From Heliobacteriaceae bacterium (lineage in GTDB: Bacteria > Cyanobacteriota > Vampirovibrionia > Gastranaerophilales > Gastranaerophilaceae), in NCBI GenBank assembly GCA_031265495.1, contig JAISCP010000148.1, forward strand, positions 1 through 38,925: DNA of 38,925 nt, written 5' to 3'. Made by a program: the position numbers and the translations under genes. The notes beneath the pieces were generated by a model. It searched no databases, was not told the DNA's origin, and saw nothing but the letters and a program-made list of their open reading frames with translations. Below are positions 70-38,925 of this stretch, piece by piece (position 1 is the stretch's first letter; each line of letters begins with the position of its first letter).

Positions 70-153
70 CTACACCGTTAAAGCCCCCCCCCCCCCCCCC
101 CCCGAGAGCGGTACTACACCTGCATTGCAGCCTTTTTTAAACATTTTATCCAT
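70..153 (-). CDS. G-tract microprotein ORF (copy A)
   Basis: A 27-codon ORF not in the ORF track. It reads MDKMFKKGCNAGVVPLSG, then a glycine run encoded by an uninterrupted homopolymer of 20 G on the minus strand, then a short tail and TAG. If the tract were a multiple of three (18 or 21), the frame would instead run on as GFNGVGKGLPHF and reach a stop about 48 codons from the start. The segment GVVPLSG(n) and the DNA around the tract resemble the ORF at 38773, at the other end of the window and in inverted orientation. No known family is recognised. A G-rich stretch lies upstream of the ATG but no clear Shine-Dalgarno sequence. Whether it is translated is unproven. Confidence 0.4.
   Translation of the reverse strand: MDKMFKKGCNAGVVPLSGGGGGGALTV
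84..103. repeat. homopolymer tract, C20 on + strand
   Basis: Twenty consecutive C on the plus strand (G20 on minus), inside the copy-A microprotein ORF. Such tracts are hypermutable by slipped-strand mispairing, and exact length calls are unreliable in short-read assemblies. Confidence 0.9.
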
Positions 154-3758: not shown

Positions 3759-4445
3759 ATGAAAAAGAGGGATTTAGGATTTACACTTGCAGAGGTGCTG
3801 ATAACACTGGGGATTATCGGTGTTGTGGCGTCGCTGACCATGCCCGCTCTTATTTCTAACTACAAAAAACAGCACACAATTACGGGGTTAAAACGTGAAT
3901 ATGCGGTTTTGGCACAAATGGTTAAGCTTTCGCAGGCAGATAACGGCAACTTTGACGAATGGGATTGGAGTTTGAATTTAGCTGATTTTGTAAACGCCTA
4001 TCTGGCTCCGTACCTGCAATTAATCAGGAACTGCGGCATAACAGATAATACCTGCTGGCTGCCGGATAGTAAAATATACGATACAAACGGCAATGCTAAG
4101 TATGATACGACATCTGCAAATTATTACACAGGAGTGCTAAACAACGGTACTTATGTTGCGTTTGAGAAGCAAGACAATAATCACCTGCACTTTTACATTG
4201 ATATTAACGGAGCCAAACGGCCGAATAAGCTCGGAGTAGACAGTTTTCTTTTCACATTTACAAGAGCTCCGTTTCTTGAAACGGGTGTACATAATATTAG
4301 TCATTCAGGATTACATTTTTATGCACAGGGGATGCCAACAGCAAACCACGTTTCAAATTGCAAAAAGGCAAGTACAGGCACTCATTGCGGAGCATTATAT
4401 GTACAGAGCGGCTGGCAAATCCCCGATAGTGTGGATATATTTTAG
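3759..4445 (+). CDS. type IV pilin-like prepilin
   Basis: A 228-residue protein with a class III (prepilin) leader: short basic MKKRDLG, then FTLAEVLITLGIIGVVASL, with the cleavage Gly before Phe and Glu at position 5 of the mature form, followed by the usual amphipathic helix (ALISNYKKQHTITGLKREYAVL). The C-terminal globular region has paired cysteines (NCGITDNTCW, and NCKKASTGTHCG), and the segment LHFYIDINGAKRPNKLG recalls pseudopilins that bind calcium or stabilise filaments. AGGAG precedes the ATG. It stands alone after a regulated promoter, apart from the pilus machinery block, so it may be a conditional minor pilin. Exact role unknown. Confidence 0.85.
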   Translation: MKKRDLGFTLAEVLITLGIIGVVASLTMPALISNYKKQHTITGLKREYAVLAQMVKLSQADNGNFDEWDWSLNLADFVNAYLAPYLQLIRNCGITDNTCWLPDSKIYDTNGNAKYDTTSANYYTGVLNNGTYVAFEKQDNNHLHFYIDINGAKRPNKLGVDSFLFTFTRAPFLETGVHNISHSGLHFYAQGMPTANHVSNCKKASTGTHCGALYVQSGWQIPDSVDIF

Positions 4446-6692: not shown

Positions 6693-7925
6693 CTAATCTG
6701 TAATATAAGACTGGAACAATGGCAGATACAATGCTGACGCCAGAACTAATACGATACCTCCGATTACGATTAACATCAGAGGTTCAATCATTTTGGTAAT
6801 GGCATCTACAATGTTATCAAGCTTTTTATCAATATAAGCCACTGCCTGCAAAAGCATTTCACCCAAACGTCCTGACTGCTCTCCGGTAGCAATCATGAAC
6901 AAAATCATTCTGGGGATTACATGAGTGGCCCGCAGCGCAACCGACAGGTGCTGTCCCTGCTGAACCTTCAATGCAGCGCCTTCTATGCTTGTTTTTAAAA
7001 CATAATTTGTAAGCGTCATATTCGATAAATACAAGCACTCAATAATGGGAACACCCGCGTCATACGCAACCTGCAGCACCGCTATGAAATTTGAAAAATT
7101 TGAAAACTGAACCATATCGCGCATAAGAGGAATTCTTAAAGAAAGTGCATCAATCATTCTCTTTGAAGGTCCCCAGTTGAACAGAAATATTGCGGAACCG
7201 ACTATGGAAAACAGTATTACCGGCGCCATAAACCAGTAAGTTTTCAGGAAAACCCCCGCATCCATCAAGACTTGCGTAATCCAAGGCAGTTGTTTTCCCA
7301 TATTATCAAACATATCCTTGAAAGTAGGGAATACAAACATTAACATAACAAGCACTATTACAATAGCAAGAAGTATTACGAACGCCGGATACATGAGCGC
7401 TCCGATAACTTTACCCTTAATTGCGGCTTCTTTCTGCTGAAGCTCCATCAAACGTTCGAGAGTTTTTTCCAGTTCGCCGGAATCCTCACCCGCTCTGCAC
7501 AAGCCTATATAAATCTGGCCAAATTGCTGCGGATATTTCGCAATCGTATCGGAAAAAGTTGAACCGGCTACAATCTGTCTTCTGAGTTCTTTTGCCACTT
7601 TTCTGACTCTCGGTCTCGCCGCATCGTTTTCTATAAACATCAGAGACTCAATAATCGGAATTCCCGACTGCGCAAGAATTTGCATTGTTGATGTAAAATC
7701 CATACGTTCATCAAGAGTAAGCTTATCAATACGTCTGGCTTTCGTGTTTACAACCGCCGGAGTTTTATCCTCTATGGCGCTGGCTATATCCTCAAGAACT
7801 TTTGTCGGGACAAAACCCATATTGCGAATATTCTCGCGCGCTTCCCGAAGACTTGCCGCTTCTATTTTGCCCTTAATTATATCCTTGTTGTCTTTTAAAG
7901 CTGTATAATTGTAAATCGCCATCAA
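6693..7925 (-). CDS. type II secretion/type IV pilus inner-membrane platform protein (GspF/PilC)
   Basis: A 410-residue polytopic protein. The start MAIYNYTALKDNKDIIKGKIEA is the usual PilC opening. Two copies of the T2SSF domain follow (about 70-195 and 275-400), each ending in a hydrophobic segment (VILLAIVIVLVMLMFVFP, then LMLIVIGGIVLVLASALYLP). The motif GRLGEMLLQ before the last membrane segment is conserved in the family. It forms the membrane platform rotated by the PilB-type ATPase encoded immediately upstream, 8 bases away. M1 and M2 are both possible starts. Confidence 0.92.
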   Translation of the reverse strand: MMAIYNYTALKDNKDIIKGKIEAASLREARENIRNMGFVPTKVLEDIASAIEDKTPAVVNTKARRIDKLTLDERMDFTSTMQILAQSGIPIIESLMFIENDAARPRVRKVAKELRRQIVAGSTFSDTIAKYPQQFGQIYIGLCRAGEDSGELEKTLERLMELQQKEAAIKGKVIGALMYPAFVILLAIVIVLVMLMFVFPTFKDMFDNMGKQLPWITQVLMDAGVFLKTYWFMAPVILFSIVGSAIFLFNWGPSKRMIDALSLRIPLMRDMVQFSNFSNFIAVLQVAYDAGVPIIECLYLSNMTLTNYVLKTSIEGAALKVQQGQHLSVALRATHVIPRMILFMIATGEQSGRLGEMLLQAVAYIDKKLDNIVDAITKMIEPLMLIVIGGIVLVLASALYLPLFQSYITD

Positions 7926-7933
7926 TAACTTCC

Positions 7934-9922
7934 TTATTCGTTCACAACGCCAAGCACACGGATAAATTCATCAACCGTTGTTTTACCGGTAAGGATATGA
8001 TTAAGGCAGGATTTGCCCAGAGTTATCATCCCGTTTCTAACGGCAATTTCTTCAATATCCATGTCATGCGCGCCCATTGCGATTAACTTTCTAATCTCTT
8101 TGGTCATCGGCATAATCTCATATAAGCCCATACGGCCTCTGTAACCCGTAAAGTTACAATGGCTGCAGCCTTTAGGCCTGTAAATGGTTTTTGTAATAAA
8201 TTCCTCAATCGCAGCTTCATCGGATATAATTTTGCCTGCTTCTTCGCGTGTTGCAAAATATTCTTCCTTGCAGTCATCACAGAGGCTTCTTACCAATCTT
8301 TGCGCAATTACGCCGGACAGCGTTGAAGCTACCAGATAATCTTTTGCGCCCATTTCAATCAAACGGGTAATCGTTGCCGCAGATGAATTCGTGTGAACCG
8401 TGCTGAACACAAGGTGCCCTGTGAGCGCCGCTGCTATTGCAATTTCGAGTGTCTCATAGTCCCGGATTTCACCGACCAGAATAATATCAGGATCCTGTCT
8501 TAATATTGCACGCATAGAGGAAGCAAAGGTTATACCTGCCTTGTTGTTAACCTGCGACTGGTTAATACCCTCAAGCCTGATTTCTATCGGGTCTTCAATC
8601 GTGGTGATATTGACGTTTTCACCGTTCAAATGCTTCAGGACAGAATAAAGCGTTGTGGTTTTTCCCGAACCCGTAGGACCTGAGGTTAAAATAACACCGT
8701 TCGGACAGGTTATCATGTCTCTGATTTTTGCAATATCTTCCTGCGTAGCGCCCATAATCTCAATCTGTCTGTTGTCGGCGTCCAAGCTTACCGCAGGTGC
8801 AAGAACACGGATTACGACTTTTTCCTTGCCGGAAATTGAAAGCGTATTTATACGAAAGTCATAAGACAGCTCTTTATATTTAATAGTAAACGTACCGTCC
8901 TGCGGCCGTCTGTGCTCGGCTATGTTCATTCTGGCAAGAACTTTAAAACGGGCAATAACAGCGCTTTCCACCTTTGGCGGAATATCAAGAACTTTGCGCA
9001 GCATGCCGTCTTTGCGGTAGCGCACTATGTAACCGGAAAGACGCGGCTCTATGTGTACGTCGGAAACCTGCGTATCAATGGCAGTGGTGATAATCTGGTT
9101 AACAAACTTTGCTACGGAACCGGTTGAATCCTGCAATTCACTGTCAACCTGATCCCATAAGCTTTCCTCTTGTTCAATTTCCGCAGTTTCTTCTTCAATC
9201 TGGCTGATAATTTTTTGGGTTTCTTTTTTCTGTGTACTGAAAAACAAATCCATAGCATCCGCAAATTCAACATGTGTCATAAGCACTTGCTTAGGATTTT
9301 GTCCGGTAAGGTAGATAATCTCTTTTAATATATCCTGCTTAACAGGGGATATGACTCCTATGGTCAATGTTTTTCCGTCAGAAAAAATCGGAATAATATT
9401 ATTGGTTCTGATGAAGTCTTCCGGCAGTAAACTTATGAACTGTTCCTGCTCGTTCAGCTGCTCGGGAGTAACCATATCCAGTCCGGTTTGTAATTGCAGA
9501 ACTTCTTTTAACTGTCTGAGCGTTATAAATCCCAATTTAAATAAAGTCGAACCTAAAGGCGTTTTCAAACGTTTACTTTCGGCAAGCGCCTGCAGCAGCT
9601 GAACATCCGATATGTAGCCTCTTTGAATTAACATATCCCCGATTTTGGTGCTGCCGTCATTTGATGCATTTAACTTAACAACGTCAATAAGCTCGCTCAA
9701 ATCCTCATCGGGAATCTGCATAAACTTAACCTGTTCGGAAAAATAGCCTTTCAGATGCGCGTTGATGGTATCTTTATCAGACTGTGAATTGACTGCAACA
9801 TACAGAAAATTATTTTTCAAATTTATCGGAACAAATCCGTGCAGTTCAAATAAATTGCCTTCTAATCTGCTTATTACCTGGGGGTTTATACTGTTTTTTA
9901 ATCTGTTTAATACTTCGTTCAT
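7934..9922 (-). CDS. pilus assembly/type II secretion ATPase (PilB/GspE)
   Basis: A 662-residue cytoplasmic hexameric ATPase that powers pseudopilin polymerisation. Domain order: an unfamiliar 90-residue N-terminus; an MshEN/T2SSE N-terminal domain (IGDMLIQRGYIS to about residue 215); N2 domain with DTQVSDVHIEPR; Walker A GPTGSGKTTT near residue 415; Asp box and Walker B region DPDIILVGEIRD; His box GHLVFSTVHTNS; and a tetracysteine zinc site (CDDC and CSHC). The zinc site and MshEN domain favour an assembly ATPase over a PilT-type retraction ATPase. No PilT is present in this window. Flanked closely by the secretin and the PilC-like platform. Confidence 0.93.
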   Translation of the reverse strand: MNEVLNRLKNSINPQVISRLEGNLFELHGFVPINLKNNFLYVAVNSQSDKDTINAHLKGYFSEQVKFMQIPDEDLSELIDVVKLNASNDGSTKIGDMLIQRGYISDVQLLQALAESKRLKTPLGSTLFKLGFITLRQLKEVLQLQTGLDMVTPEQLNEQEQFISLLPEDFIRTNNIIPIFSDGKTLTIGVISPVKQDILKEIIYLTGQNPKQVLMTHVEFADAMDLFFSTQKKETQKIISQIEEETAEIEQEESLWDQVDSELQDSTGSVAKFVNQIITTAIDTQVSDVHIEPRLSGYIVRYRKDGMLRKVLDIPPKVESAVIARFKVLARMNIAEHRRPQDGTFTIKYKELSYDFRINTLSISGKEKVVIRVLAPAVSLDADNRQIEIMGATQEDIAKIRDMITCPNGVILTSGPTGSGKTTTLYSVLKHLNGENVNITTIEDPIEIRLEGINQSQVNNKAGITFASSMRAILRQDPDIILVGEIRDYETLEIAIAAALTGHLVFSTVHTNSSAATITRLIEMGAKDYLVASTLSGVIAQRLVRSLCDDCKEEYFATREEAGKIISDEAAIEEFITKTIYRPKGCSHCNFTGYRGRMGLYEIMPMTKEIRKLIAMGAHDMDIEEIAVRNGMITLGKSCLNHILTGKTTVDEFIRVLGVVNE

Positions 9923-9971: not shown

Positions 9972-11825
9972 TTATAATGTTTCTGTGTTGACTATGGAAT
10001 CTTCCGAATCAGTGATTATCTTCGGAGTAATCATGATAATCATTTCTTCTTTACTTTTTTCGGTAAGCGTGCTTCTGAAAAATGTTCCCAACCCCGGAAT
10101 GTCTCCCAAAATAGGAACTTTCTTAACGTTTTTGGTTTCATCTTCACGAATCATACCGCCTATAATAAGAGTCTCTCCGTCTTTAATCCGGACATTTTTA
10201 AGATCAAGATTTCTTCTTTGAAGCAGGGTTGCCTGCGGAATAATATCGCCGGAAGTATCTTTGGTTGTTACGCGGTCTTTAATAGTTGCGTATTCGGGAG
10301 CAATGTTAAGCGTAACATAACCGTCAGGGCTTATAAACGGCGTTATGGAAACCTTAATACCGTTGTCGTCCGCTATTTCATAAGTCCTCTGAACAGCGCC
10401 CGCCAAAGAACCGGCAAGAACTTCCGACCTTACTGATTTAACATAATCAGAAGTCAAATCAATTGTAGATTCCTGTCCGTTGGTTATTAAAATACGCGGA
10501 TTTGCCACAACTCTGCCCTTTCTGTTTTCTATTAAGTAATTAATAGTATATTGAACTACCGGACTGCCCGAATATTTTGCCAGATTAGGCATGTTGGGGT
10601 TCTTGCTGCCGGCAAAGAATATAGGATAACCCGGATCGCCTTCTTTAGCCGGAAGAATATTACCTGTTTTGCCGTTGTTGAAGCTTGCGGAGAAAAATCT
10701 TGTATACATTTCCCAAGTATTATCAAGAGTTTTACTTCCCGCTTCACTCAGTTCTATAATTGAAACTTCCAAATAAGCCTGCGGCTGTTTTTTATCTGTT
10801 TTTGCAATAAATTCTTTAATCATTTCAACCTGCTGCTCGGAACCGCCGATAACATTAACCGTCCCCAGCTGGGTGTAATACGAAACCGAAAGGCTCCGAA
10901 GCGCAATAGATGACAGTGCGCCGGCTTCTGTTTTTGACTCATAAGAACATGCTATGGTACCTTCATTTAGAGAAATATCACCGCCGCCGCTGCTGCCGGA
11001 GCTGCTGCTGCTGCCGCTGCCGAAACCGCTGCTGCCGCTGCCAAAACTGCTGCTTGCCGCGCCGGTCATAATTCCGGCCGCGCCGCCTGTTGAACTTCCT
11101 TCAATGCCGAGTGCGTTCGGAAGTAACAATTTACATACCATATCCGCCATTTGCGCGGGAGTTGTATGATTTACCTTAAAAGCCGCTGTTGTCGGTTTTT
11201 TATCAAATTTGGCGACAACTTTTCTTGCAATCGCAACTTCATTTTGCGTGCCGAAAATCAACAATTCATTAGTTGCAGGGTTTGTTACGGCAACTTCTCC
11301 GCCTGAAATACCCGGTTTATTTATACCGTAAATGTTTTTATTCAAAAAACCCGCTATTGTTGTTGCATCGACATATTTAACCGGAATTGAGGTTAATTCC
11401 TGCTTAGCTACGTTAAAATCTTTAACAGATGTGGGCGCTATGATGATTGTATTTCCGTCCAGAACATACGTCAGCCGGGAAATCTCCATAATCAGTTCAA
11501 AAGCCTTATTCAGAGGAACGCTGACTAAATCCAGCGTTACGGTCTGGTCTTTGACCTCGGGGTGCAGAATAATGTTCAAACCCGCTTTGTCCGCAAACAT
11601 TCTCAAGACTTGGGTAACATCGGATTCTCTAAGACTGAGAGTAATCGGCGTGTTCTTTTTCGTGATACTGATTTCACCTTTAAGCGGCATTGACTCATCC
11701 TGAATTGCTTCCCGCAGCGCAGGCTGGGAATAAGTATCCTGCGTTGCCGGCACTGAAGCGCCGGTAAACAAAAATGCCGTTAAAATTGAAAATGTAGTGA
11801 TTTTTTTTGTAATGTTATTTTTCAT
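9972..11825 (-). CDS. secretin (PilQ/GspD family outer-membrane channel)
   Basis: About 617 residues from the ATG at 11825, which has AGGAGA just upstream and begins a signal peptide (MKNNITKKITTFSILTAFLF). The ORF track start at 11921 adds 32 residues overlapping the previous gene and is unlikely. Domains: STN/AMIN-like short domain (ITLSLRESDVTQVLRMFADK); secretin N-terminal NolW-type ring (TPAQMADMVCKLL); a Ser/Gly-rich low-complexity linker (SSFGSGSSGFGSGSSSSSG); and the C-terminal secretin barrel (KDGETLIIGGMIREDE and VPILGDIPGLGTFFRS). It forms the outer-membrane gate. This implies a diderm envelope. Confidence 0.9.
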   Translation of the reverse strand: MKNNITKKITTFSILTAFLFTGASVPATQDTYSQPALREAIQDESMPLKGEISITKKNTPITLSLRESDVTQVLRMFADKAGLNIILHPEVKDQTVTLDLVSVPLNKAFELIMEISRLTYVLDGNTIIIAPTSVKDFNVAKQELTSIPVKYVDATTIAGFLNKNIYGINKPGISGGEVAVTNPATNELLIFGTQNEVAIARKVVAKFDKKPTTAAFKVNHTTPAQMADMVCKLLLPNALGIEGSSTGGAAGIMTGAASSSFGSGSSGFGSGSSSSSGSSGGGDISLNEGTIACSYESKTEAGALSSIALRSLSVSYYTQLGTVNVIGGSEQQVEMIKEFIAKTDKKQPQAYLEVSIIELSEAGSKTLDNTWEMYTRFFSASFNNGKTGNILPAKEGDPGYPIFFAGSKNPNMPNLAKYSGSPVVQYTINYLIENRKGRVVANPRILITNGQESTIDLTSDYVKSVRSEVLAGSLAGAVQRTYEIADDNGIKVSITPFISPDGYVTLNIAPEYATIKDRVTTKDTSGDIIPQATLLQRRNLDLKNVRIKDGETLIIGGMIREDETKNVKKVPILGDIPGLGTFFRSTLTEKSKEEMIIMITPKIITDSEDSIVNTETL

Positions 11826-11844
11826 AGCTTCTCCTGCTTTTTTA

Positions 11845-12510
11845 TTACTTTCTGTTCTTTGTTCCGCCGAACTTACTTTCCAAATTGGAAACCGTGTTAT
11901 AGTTAAGTCCGTCCGTAGCAAATAATTCGCCGACTCCGGCTTTGTAAATATTTTTTCCTAATTGTACTGTAACATTTGTTTTGCCAATTGACAAAACTTT
12001 ATAATTATGAATATAATCACCTGATCTTACAAGGTAATCAGAACCGTCTAAATTAATAATTGCGGAAGGATTATACTGGTCGTACAAAATGCCGGTAACT
12101 TTGGTATTAATGACATTGGACGCGTCAGAGTCAATCGTAATATTATCGGGCGGAGCTATCATATCGGAAGATATATAATCTCCCATAGTTTCAAATCCTC
12201 CTGCGTCGGGTACGAACGGATTAACGCGGCCTATGCCGTCAATGGTTACCGCAACCGTCTTGTCTCCCGAGCCGGGAATATCTCCTGCAATGCCGGCTTT
12301 AATTCCGTCATTTCCTATGGTAACCGACTCTTGGGATTCAGGAACACTGAGTTCCTCCGAGTCGTCTTTTTTTTGCGTACATCCTGTTGTATTAATCAAT
12401 ATGACAATCAAAAACAACGCGGCAAAAATCAGGCCAAGCTTCCTGTTTAGGCTTTGGAAACTATTTTTGTTATTTTCTTTGGCATATCTTTCTATAAAGT
12501 TTTCGTTCAC
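11845..12510 (-). CDS. PilP-like pilus assembly protein
   Basis: A 221-residue protein beginning at a GTG with AAGGTGAG upstream. A basic cytoplasmic N-terminus of about 27 residues precedes one membrane segment (LGLIFAALFLIVILINTTG) ending in TTGC, which resembles a lipobox although the preceding tail is long for a lipoprotein signal. The periplasmic part contains GRVNPFVP, comparable to the GxxDPF motif of PilP/GspC-type proteins, and a C-terminal beta domain (VTGILYDQYNPSAIINLDG, then YKVLSIGKTNVTVQLG) typical of the homology region that docks on the secretin. First gene of the pilus block, 19 bases before the secretin start. PilP/GspC role is inferred from motif and position. Confidence 0.7.
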   Translation of the reverse strand: MNENFIERYAKENNKNSFQSLNRKLGLIFAALFLIVILINTTGCTQKKDDSEELSVPESQESVTIGNDGIKAGIAGDIPGSGDKTVAVTIDGIGRVNPFVPDAGGFETMGDYISSDMIAPPDNITIDSDASNVINTKVTGILYDQYNPSAIINLDGSDYLVRSGDYIHNYKVLSIGKTNVTVQLGKNIYKAGVGELFATDGLNYNTVSNLESKFGGTKNRK

Positions 12511-13056: not shown

Positions 13057-14607
13057 TTATTTCTTGTTTTCAAGCTTCAGAAGCTTTGCTTCCAGAGCTT
13101 TATTTTGTTTCAATATATCATTCTGAACTCTCGCCATGTCATCCTGAACCTGTTTCAGCATTTTATTTTGCTCTTTTAGTTCTTTATTTTCTTTTTTAAG
13201 CGTCGCAATGTCGTTACGAACTCCCGCCACGTCATTCTTAACGGAAGCAATGACATCATTTATTTTCTTATCCAACTCTTTTACTGCATTGACTAAAGCA
13301 TAGAGAATGTCCTCTGTGCGAACCGCCAAAAATCCACCGGAACCTTTGCTTACCGCGTCAGGAAATATTTTCTGTAAATCCTGCGCAATTACGCCGACTC
13401 GCGGTGTTTTTGCCTTGTCGTCTTTAAGGGTGTAATTGAATACTTTTATCTGTTTAATCTTTTCAAGCCCGCTGGTGTTTTCGCTTTTAATATTTTTCAG
13501 GCGTTTATCGGAGGTAACCTGTGTTCCGCCAACATAAAGGCTGCCGGGTATATAAACAGTACTGTTGCTTACACCTATCCACACTTGATTTGCGTCGCTG
13601 GTTTTATCATCCTCAATGCTGGTCGGTCCTGCACCTATTCCTATACAGGTCTTGTATGAACCGCTGGTTACGTTATAGCATGCATTATAACCCACACCGG
13701 TATTATAACTCCCTGCGGTGTTATACAATGCATTATCCCCCAAGCCGACGTTAGCACCACCTGCGATGTTGTTATACAATGCATTACGACCCAAGGCGGT
13801 GTTATTACCCCCTTCGGTGTTGTTATACAATGCATAATGCCCCACGCCGGTGTTTTGCCCCCCTTTGGTGTTGTTATACAATGCATAATACCCTAAGCCG
13901 GTGTTATTATTCCCTCCGGTGTTAGAACGACCTGCATAATTACCGGTAAATGTATTGTAACTCCCGGTAGTGTTAGAGTAGCCTGCAACAGTACCGATAA
14001 AAGCATTATTAGAACCGCTAGTGTTAGAATAGCCTGCGTAATTACCGAGGAAAACATTATGATGACCTGTGGTGTTGGGATAGCCCGCAGCATGACCAAT
14101 AAAGACATTATTATTCCCGGTAGTGTTAGAATAACCTGCAGTATTACCTATCGCTGTATTATAACCGCCGGATGTTCCGAGATTTGCCAACGCCCCCAGA
14201 CCAAAAGACGTATTATAAGACATCTTATTAGCCGGAACACTTCCAAAATACATATTTGTATTGTCTATGTACAAACCTGCATTGGCAGTACCGCTTTGAT
14301 TTTTAAAAAGCATGTGGTTTTGTGCGGCTGCTCCTTTTTTTAATATCAAACGGGCATTGTCATCATCTGCTTTGCTGTTAGCTCCTATGACTACATTTTC
14401 TCCGTAATATATACCCGGACCGTTCGCGGTCAATTCGCTCCACAGCGACTCGCCGCCTGAACCGCCGGAGCTTTTCATCCGGCGCGTCATCATAGGTGCA
14501 AACGCCGCCAGCATTATCGCCAATATCAGCAGAACAATCATCATTTCAGCCAGCGTGAATCCTCTGTCTGAATATTTATTATTAACTTTTCGATTTTGCA
14601 TCACCAT
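13057..14607 (-). CDS. chimeric prepilin with fibre-like repeats and peptidase S74 chaperone
   Basis: About 516 residues; the ATG at 14607 has AAGGA at good spacing, whereas the ORF-track ATG at 14616 abuts it. N-terminus: prepilin leader ending at G before FTLAEMMIVLLILAIMLAAF. Middle: about eleven tandem 17-residue repeats of the type NVFIGHAAGYPNTTG, changing part-way to NTGVGHYALYNNTEGG, resembling YadA head or phage fibre beta-structures. C-terminus: an intramolecular chaperone/peptidase S74 domain with the hallmark SDKRLKNI and GVIAQDLQKIFPDAV, then a long coiled coil (KKENKELKEQNKMLKQ). S74 domains normally trimerise tail-spikes and cleave themselves off. Here the fibre seems to be anchored or secreted through a pilin leader. 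Placed next to the pilus block, so export by that machine is likely but inferred. Confidence 0.85.
   Translation of the reverse strand: MVMQNRKVNNKYSDRGFTLAEMMIVLLILAIMLAAFAPMMTRRMKSSGGSGGESLWSELTANGPGIYYGENVVIGANSKADDDNARLILKKGAAAQNHMLFKNQSGTANAGLYIDNTNMYFGSVPANKMSYNTSFGLGALANLGTSGGYNTAIGNTAGYSNTTGNNNVFIGHAAGYPNTTGHHNVFLGNYAGYSNTSGSNNAFIGTVAGYSNTTGSYNTFTGNYAGRSNTGGNNNTGLGYYALYNNTKGGQNTGVGHYALYNNTEGGNNTALGRNALYNNIAGGANVGLGDNALYNTAGSYNTGVGYNACYNVTSGSYKTCIGIGAGPTSIEDDKTSDANQVWIGVSNSTVYIPGSLYVGGTQVTSDKRLKNIKSENTSGLEKIKQIKVFNYTLKDDKAKTPRVGVIAQDLQKIFPDAVSKGSGGFLAVRTEDILYALVNAVKELDKKINDVIASVKNDVAGVRNDIATLKKENKELKEQNKMLKQVQDDMARVQNDILKQNKALEAKLLKLENKK
13130..13152 (-). repeat. dispersed palindrome embedded in coding sequence
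   Basis: GTCATCCTGAACCTGTTTCA within the S74 prepilin gene matches the intergenic palindrome at 12793 with one change and encodes part of LKQVQDDM in the C-terminal coiled coil. Confidence 0.6.
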
Positions 14608-14766
14608 GCTAATCATCCTTTAATAAATAATTATAGCAGAGTCATAAAAATTTTGCAAGAAGATATTTTTTTAATTAGTTACATAATTATTAGTAAACAG
14701 GATTGTTAAAAACCATAACCATCCTGTCATGCTGATATAAGCGAATAGGTGAATAAGAGGTCTTGA

Positions 14767-38277: not shown

Positions 38278-38757
38278 ATGCCCGAAGATATTATTGAAAC
38301 AAAATCAAAATTTGACTTAACTTCCAAGAGTACGTTTTCGACGGATGATGATGTTTTCACGTCGCGTTCGATTGCGGCTTTTCTGGCTAAAAGCCATGTA
38401 CCTGTTTCGCACAGAAGAATTGCGGATAATTACTTAATTATAAAAAAGATTTTTAAATTTCAGGCTGTATTAAGCAGGATTTCCAATGTAGAAAAGGCTC
38501 TGCTGGGCAAGTACGGTTTTAACACTCTGGAATTCACGACTGTTAAACGTATGTATGATGAGCTTGCTTTGCTGCAGAAATGGGCGGCTTCGCCGGATGT
38601 GAGATTAAAAACGGATGCGGACGAGATTGTGGAAATCAGGGTTAAAGAATTGAAATTTATTACTGCAAACCGTTACACAAGTATTTCGAATGAAATTTAT
38701 AAGGGGTATGTAGTATTTGAGAATTACTTGAAGGAAATAAGCAAATTTTACGATTAA
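38278..38757 (+). CDS. hypothetical protein
   Basis: A 159-residue hydrophilic protein, predicted mostly helical after an Asp/Ser/Thr-rich N-terminus (LTSKSTFSTDDDVFTSRSIA). Segments such as NVEKALLGKYGFNTLEFTTV and YDELALLQKWAASPDVRLKT look like packed helices. No signal peptide, no membrane segment and no family recognised. GGAGG lies at 38270-38274, only 3 bases before the ATG, so spacing is tight. The G-tract microprotein ORF follows 15 bases downstream and may be co-transcribed. Confidence 0.65.
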   Translation: MPEDIIETKSKFDLTSKSTFSTDDDVFTSRSIAAFLAKSHVPVSHRRIADNYLIIKKIFKFQAVLSRISNVEKALLGKYGFNTLEFTTVKRMYDELALLQKWAASPDVRLKTDADEIVEIRVKELKFITANRYTSISNEIYKGYVVFENYLKEISKFYD

Positions 38758-38772: not shown

Positions 38773-38913
38773 ATGAAAAATCAAATTACGGGACGGAATA
38801 TTTCAGGTAAGACGTTTGGGTCGGAGTCAAGTGCCGGAAATACAGGTGTAGTGTCACTTTCGGGGGGGGGGGGGGGCTTTATAACAGCTTCCGGCAAGGC
38901 TTTCAGCCCGTAG
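38773..38913 (+). CDS. G-tract microprotein ORF (copy B)
   Basis: A 46-codon ORF absent from the ORF track: MKNQITGRNISGKTFG, then the shared segment NTGVVSLSG(n) with glycines encoded by G15, then FITASGKAFSP and TAG. GGAGGGAAGAGGG precedes the ATG. Changing the tract by +1 opens the frame LYNSFRQGFQPVDNKP to the window end; by -1 it stops at once (TAA). Thus tract length decides between three products. Similar to copy A at 70-153 in both DNA and peptide around the tract. No known family. Confidence 0.5.
   Translation: MKNQITGRNISGKTFGSESSAGNTGVVSLSGGGGGFITASGKAFSP
38862..38876. repeat. homopolymer tract, G15
   Basis: Fifteen consecutive G within copy B of the microprotein ORF, 49 bases from the window end. 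Confidence 0.9.
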
Positions 38914-38925
38914 ATAATAAACCTA

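Follow-up and report, generated by a model that had tools for sequence, protein, structure and literature searches.

In Bifidobacterium breve UCC2003, the genes of sortase-dependent pili carry G-tracts that change in length by replication slippage. The reference allele reads as two separate ORFs, which the omission of a single base from a G10 run fuses (PMC9187656). This switching of the pilus was shown by deep sequencing and in a mouse model (PMC9187656). Neisseria genomes contain an average of 15-19 poly-G tracts, and pilC has an in-gene homopolymer (PMC5953494). The pilus G-tracts of B. breve are the nearest precedent for the feature described here. For Gastranaerophilales, a search of titles and abstracts found no paper on phase variation. 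Likewise, nothing on such pilin switches was found in the titles and abstracts of papers on Gastranaerophilales or Melainabacteria with pilins.

The window, 38,925 nucleotides long, is contig C12 in its full length. It belongs to an assembly of 2.05 Mb in 153 contigs that is 95% complete (genome G000). A sequence-only reading had pointed to two short ORFs at its ends, each with a glycine run encoded by a G-tract (G20 and G15) in a matching context, and its coordinates proved exact (Table 1). Both tracts have CAGGTGTAGT on their 5′ side and CTTTA on their 3′ side. The exact string CAGGTGTAGT followed by a G run is found at only these two places in this genome.

Table 1. Features of the window that concern the tracts, the prepilins and the pilus machinery
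Feature	Position	Strand	Evidence or remark
Downstream leader to contig end	1-83	minus	prepilin-homologous frame FNGVGKGLPHFVKKSYKTAKLGV stops after 23 codons; no prepilin in the remaining 83 nt
Short ATG-frame ORF reading through G20, MDKMFKKGCNAGVVPLSGGGGGGALTV, 27 aa	70-153 (ATG 153-151, stop ends at 70)	minus	sequence
G homopolymer tract G20 (C20 on plus)	84-103	minus	sequence; one of 31 family tracts
Sigma-70-like promoter: TTGACA 213-218, 17-nt spacer, TATAAT 190-195	190-218	minus	sequence; type and position as upstream of most other copies
Prepilin of FTLAEVLITLGIIG class, ordinary short leader, no tract	3759-4445	plus	PF07963 1.4e-5
PilC/GspF-type inner-membrane platform protein (T2SSF)	6693-7925	minus	PF00482 2.2e-46
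PilB/GspE-type assembly ATPase with MshEN domain	7934-9922	minus	PF00437 9.8e-122, PF05157; TIGR02538 1.1e-160
Secretin, PilQ/GspD type (pilus or type II secretion)	9972-11921	minus	PF00263 5.7e-38; TIGR02517, TIGR02515
Prepilin with Peptidase_S74 domain, leader without tract; untracted relative of the putatively switched S74 prepilins	13057-14616	minus	PF07963, PF13884
Short ATG-frame ORF through second tract, 46 aa, longer and different N-terminus	38773-38913 (ATG 38773, TAG 38911-38913)	plus	sequence
Homopolymer tract G15	38862-38876	plus	sequence
Downstream leader, prepilin-type frame open to contig end, LYNSFRQGFQPVDNKP	38877-38925	plus	sequence

The cassette and the prepilin genes behind it

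The genome contains 48 runs of at least ten G, compared to about 0.5 expected in random sequence of the window's composition. One conserved cassette is shared by 31 of these tracts, including the two in the window, and the multi-copy family that had been proposed from the window is thereby supported. The cassette consists, in this order, of a promoter, a Shine-Dalgarno sequence, an ATG, 16 codons and a tract of G11 to G22. In most copies the promoter reads TTGACA-(17-18 nt)-TATAAT, and in some another A/T-rich stretch is found. It is followed by GAAGGAGGAATGGTTATG or a close variant and then by the 16 codons, whose consensus is near MREVFKNGCNAGVxPLS. The distance from ATG to tract is exactly 50 nt in 30 copies, and no stop variants were observed in that frame; the minus-strand window copy has this leader in common with 29 others. 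The plus-strand window copy deviates, having a longer N-terminus and sitting behind another gene. Directly 5′ of it lies a 159-residue ORF (38278-38757, plus strand) with no Pfam or NCBIfam match. Downstream of the tract, about 35 nt are similar among the copies and varied repeats follow. Since the sequence 5′ of the promoter is different in each copy, the cassettes are dispersed transcription units. A viral origin was rejected, CCACTTTCG9 being without match in viral contigs.

The sequence-only reading had also considered a repeat near which contigs end, and this is borne out by 14 of the 31 copies, which lie within 350 nt of a contig end where 1.6 would be expected (P ~1e-10). Runs of 31-65 G (65, 41, 31) were also seen at contig ends, at L055/L128 (C75), L135 (C112) and L139 (C149). 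These are probably sequencing artefacts and were left out of the family count.

For neither window copy is a prepilin visible, because the contig ends 49 nt (plus copy) and 83 nt (minus copy) past the tract. The left end of the window, searched across the assembly to close the gap, occurs nowhere else. Homology identifies the minus-strand ORF as a prepilin-type 5′ leader that runs into a premature stop. This copy may be degenerate, because its prepilin-homologous frame also stops. In the plus-strand copy, LYNSFRQGFQPVDNKP is close to LSNCFRQGFQPLDKKP of L123, which leads to a prepilin, and one more G would bring the ATG in frame with the prepilin-type frame.

Wherever the contig extends far enough past the tract, which is the case for 17 copies, a prepilin starts within 500 nt. 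The short ORF is thus the out-of-frame 5′ end of a prepilin gene, and the small proteins suggested earlier are not supported. The prepilins start with AFTLAEVLITLxxIG or AFTLAEMMIVLLVM, and the [GA]F[TS]LxE motif and hydrophobic stretch of type IV prepilins are found downstream of the tracts. Matches to PF07963 lie 3′ of tracts at C6, C9, C14, C17, C66, C76, C92, C125 and others. The whole genome has 81 matches to the prepilin N-terminus at E<=0.1, and across family genomes the number ranges from none to 90 or more.

Read in the prepilin frame, 15 of the 17 linked copies have no stop between tract and prepilin, whereas their other two frames close within 2-55 nt. Chance open frames were ruled out, since the open frame reaches the prepilin every time and the other two close at once. 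The ATG is in frame with the prepilin in none of the 15; loss of one G would bring nine of them in frame, and gain of one G the other six. Under random phase this result has P = 0.002, for copies that are paralogues and not independent. L123, although in phase, carries a nonsense codon past the tract, and L116 is likewise interrupted by a nonsense codon.

The tract-bearing prepilins are of three sorts: those with NTGVGxxAL repeats and Peptidase_S74, those with an Lcl_C C-terminus, and plain ones of ~210-225 residues. The fusion of NTGVGxxAL repeats and Peptidase_S74 (endosialidase chaperone), a domain as found in phage tail fibres, to a prepilin was observed at L114, L116, L121, L123 and L137, and also at 13057-14616 (minus strand) in the window. 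The Lcl_C (lectin-like) matches are under the curated cut-off, with E of 1e-6 to 1e-7. In the Lcl_C prepilins L127, L129, L130 and L133, the last residues vary between paralogues (WSSTEY..AW.Q.F.DG.Q...VRCVR), like targets of diversity-generating retroelements. Such a retroelement was rejected as the cause, as no reverse transcriptase (PF00078) is present in the assembled genome. At L127, L133, L137, L140 and others, palindromic-repeat DNA forms part of the predicted coding sequence between tract and prepilin (RHCEKGVSPTKQSRKSTVLTG). Several leaders of this genome have the cleavage motif doubled around a palindromic repeat (AFTLAEQAEPAALVRHCEK..AFTLAEVLITL), which corresponds to in-frame repeat insertions. 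We take these in-frame palindromic repeats of pilin leaders to be reminiscent of Rickettsia palindromic elements.

Tracts and reading frames in related genomes

Surveys with the PLSG/RATFG motif of this cassette found it in 5 of 288, 3 of 383 and 1 of 146 genomes. The assumption that the feature is restricted to genomes with this motif turned out to be wrong, as other genera carry other flanks. When any run of at least ten G is counted, 149 of 191 family genomes have one or more tracts, with a maximum of 176 (G206), and many others have none. The number of tracts is patchy even within a genus: G020, the single genome of the same genus in that search, has 1 tract compared to 48 in G000.

The relatives' stretches were taken mostly from contig starts, with one assembly per species. 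In the sampled other genera of the family, a Shine-Dalgarno sequence with ATG is followed by 6-28 codons, a tract and a prepilin. Over G000 and these relatives together, the tracts are G or C runs of 8-22 within ~20-90 nt of the start. The flanks are wholly different among genera (G122, G009, G000), while tract, leader and prepilin are kept. The search for further copies in the genome and its relatives, which had been proposed from the window, therefore yielded both the 31 cassettes and the same design with other flanks in other genera. Because other genera enter the tract in other frames or have poly-C, with different leader peptides, the glycine run is merely what the ATG frame reads through the putative switch.

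Prepilin leaders with a Shine-Dalgarno-preceded ATG and a G or C tract were pooled from 11 genomes. This count used a stricter motif and a 500-nt limit, so that it includes 13 copies from G000 and not 15. It comprises 98 leaders, with phases 2, 1 and 0 represented by 78, 16 and 4. Four in-frame leaders compare with 33 expected (P ~1e-12), where paralogous loci are counted as independent and the result depends on the choice of the ATG, which was made by the best Shine-Dalgarno score. The in-frame cases have n=11 (G122, whose loci were selected for n>=10, and G022), n=8 (G206) and, once, n=10. Next to the in-frame n=11 and n=8 tracts there are neighbours with n=10 that are off. In G265 (RGIG8857), MLKRSRRATFGGGAFLANLLGKKKKAFTLAETLIALVIIG is in frame at n=10. 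G287 (RUG14125) has a tract of n=12 that is off and two n=10 copies that are open to contig ends.

In genus g7, the tract is nearly always 10 long and the gene is one base short of in-frame, with 61 of 63 leaders in phase 2. One extra base is needed by 44 of 46 leaders in G206, 12 of 12 in G073 and 5 of 5 in G118. The G206 leaders carry 36 G10, 9 C10 and one G8. In 0.6 Mb of this genome, 58 of 60 tracts of at least eight G are exactly 10 long and two are 8. Tracts outside prepilin leaders, some without evident ORF, are also exactly 10. Among paralogues the length is varied in G000 and hardly varies in G206 and G073. G10 tracts were also seen in non-pilin genes of G206, for example a glycosyltransferase-like one, apparently in frame (C1, minus strand, at 320575 and 134259 as numbered in the joined and strand-oriented sample). 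A second leader class in G206 (L251-L260, L275-L294; e.g. C1, plus strand, near 186563 and 213547) has C10 on the coding strand; all nine have n=10, and all nine are off by the same phase as G10.

Explanations for the off-frame tracts

The anatomy of the loci, their reading frames, their copy number and their spread over genera can be read directly from the assemblies. From these we infer that the tract is probably a slipped-strand ON/OFF translation switch in the leaders of a large type IV prepilin-like family, off at its usual length. Every gene starts with a ribosome-binding site and an ATG of its own, mostly behind a separate sigma-70-like promoter in G000, and its prepilin domain comes after a short leader and a run of G or C. 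With the tract at its usual length, the frame of the ATG runs into a stop shortly past it and the gene is off; a length change by one base puts ATG and prepilin in a single frame. After such a change, prepilin peptidase would cut off the whole leader including the tract-encoded residues, so that the leader sequence would matter little. Slipped-strand mispairing in replication would change the length and turn on a few of the many genes per lineage. The pilus machinery, which is partly encoded in the window, would display the products on the surface.

As in known slipped-strand genes, the homopolymer lies in the coding region near the 5′ end, and its length decides whether the full protein is read, since the prepilin is open in one frame only. 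The earlier suggestion of a tract belonging to the type that slips and switches genes is supported. DNA slippage is also favoured by the length-dependent frames, by the in-frame variants, by the length spread in G000 (11-22) and by the tracts of n=10 outside prepilin leaders. For these exact-10 tracts, a mutational equilibrium fits better than coding selection. Random ON/OFF states across loci, as in unselected slipped-strand genes, were not found; slipped-strand switches could leave just four of 98 leaders in frame only if OFF were selected or if tract length were biased. DNA slippage must further assume that the assembly reports the mode of an equilibrium length distribution and that the genes evolved to be off at that mode. 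Against it stand the near-invariant tract length in g7, which is narrower than the spread in Neisseria, and the near-constant shift needed in g7, though any off phase would serve to keep a gene OFF.

This fixed length and phase would be readily understood if the off-frame tract were itself the functional allele. In programmed slippage at expression, every locus would yield a fraction of full-length prepilin, either because RNA polymerase stutters and turns G10 into G11 in the mRNA or because ribosomes shift frame by -1 on the G run. A 0-frame stop is found 5-8 nt past the tract at 35 of the 37 G206 G-tract loci, and at 30 of the 37 there is no Shine-Dalgarno-preceded start in the prepilin frame; most of these loci would therefore need a frame change for expression. 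That many dozens of prepilin genes are intact but off-frame is also less puzzling if they are expressed in their present form. However, the needed shift is the opposite in G009 (5 of 5 in phase 1) and mixed in G000, and in-frame length variants exist. In addition, C10 leaders behave as G10 leaders, which is a misfit to the ribosomal G-slip motif, and the tracts without evident ORF have the same length of 10. We consider programmed slippage unlikely.

A different origin of the constant length would be a double-stranded DNA element, a site of recombination or insertion, that works whichever way it is oriented and shuffles or inverts leaders. The tract would be part of it, its length would come from the element sequence and the off-frame state from the fixed size. 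In G206, all 58 G10 tracts of the sample read C-G10-C, and the sequence around C10 is similar to the reverse complement of that around G10, with 8.3 of 20 positions identical compared to 5.5 in shuffled sequence (sd 0.34). On the other hand, tract, leader and prepilin persist between flanks that have nothing in common from genus to genus, and no inverted pair of one leader was seen, which makes such an element very improbable. For pili, a recoding or dsDNA-element system of this kind would be a novelty: in each genome, a fixed G10/C10 element would keep dozens of prepilin genes one base off-frame, and they would be expressed only via programmed slippage or an either-orientation element. Each cell would then present a low, tunable sample of many pilins with its DNA unchanged. 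We regard this as rather unlikely.

The stand-alone microprotein of the sequence-only reading, or a leader peptide that controls the downstream gene unfused, with the prepilin made from an internal start, is likewise very improbable. It could account for the exact 50-nt ATG-to-tract frame without stop variants in 30 copies and for the many G000 leaders that have an internal ATG and a weak Shine-Dalgarno-like GAGGAAG inside the repeat. But the internal ATG is absent from 6 of the 17 linked G000 loci, and in G206 the 30 loci mentioned above have no suitable start. The N-terminal 16 codons are only moderately constrained, the peptide past the tract is not kept in any single frame, and between genera the leader peptides differ while tract and prepilin stay. 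Pseudogenes or tract lengths miscalled by the assembler are highly doubtful despite the probable homopolymer artefacts at contig ends (65, 41, 31) and the nonsense codons past the tract in L116 and L123, as the design recurs in independent assemblies of several genera, prepilin bodies are open with intact domains, conserved sequence bounds the tracts on both sides, and random errors would not give just 4 of 98 in frame.

Significance and comparison with known systems

The best-known homopolymer switches are those of pathogens, Neisseria among them, and here up to ten times as many tracts per genome are found, in a bacterial family represented in samples of the rumen and of other ruminant stomachs. 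In the sampled stretches, most long tracts sit in leaders of type IV prepilins, almost always in the off frame; some of these prepilins have a lectin-like or an S74 domain. If the slipped-strand reading is true, these bacteria would rank among those with the largest sets of switchable fibres known on any cell surface. Tract-bearing prepilin genes of this kind will be split or overlooked by gene callers. Tract lengths in populations are readable from existing metagenome reads, and the fixed length of ten poses a sharp question, mutational equilibrium versus programmed recoding.

The likeness to B. breve consists of a G10/G11 run in a pilus gene, a split reference allele, fusion by one base and a gut commensal as host. 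B. breve, however, switches sortase pili in one or two clusters per genome, whereas here type IV prepilins at tens of loci per genome are concerned, identified in assemblies, and the tract lies in the leader, ahead of the cleavage site. With Neisseria (e.g. pilC), the loci share an in-gene G/C homopolymer, 9-20 long, by which the frame of a type IV pilus protein is determined, and a multi-locus phasome. In Neisseria the tracts are distributed over many functions and their lengths spread around 9-10. In contrast, up to 176 tracts of at least ten G occur per genome here; those in the sampled stretches lie largely in leaders of prepilins and are almost always off-frame, and one length dominates in g7. 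Genes with programmed frameshifting or transcriptional realignment, e.g. dnaX (PMC3711429), resemble these loci in the stable two-frame split at a homopolymer and in the conserved off-frame arrangement. The present loci differ from dnaX-type genes by pure G or C runs, by in-frame length variants and by a needed shift that differs between genomes.
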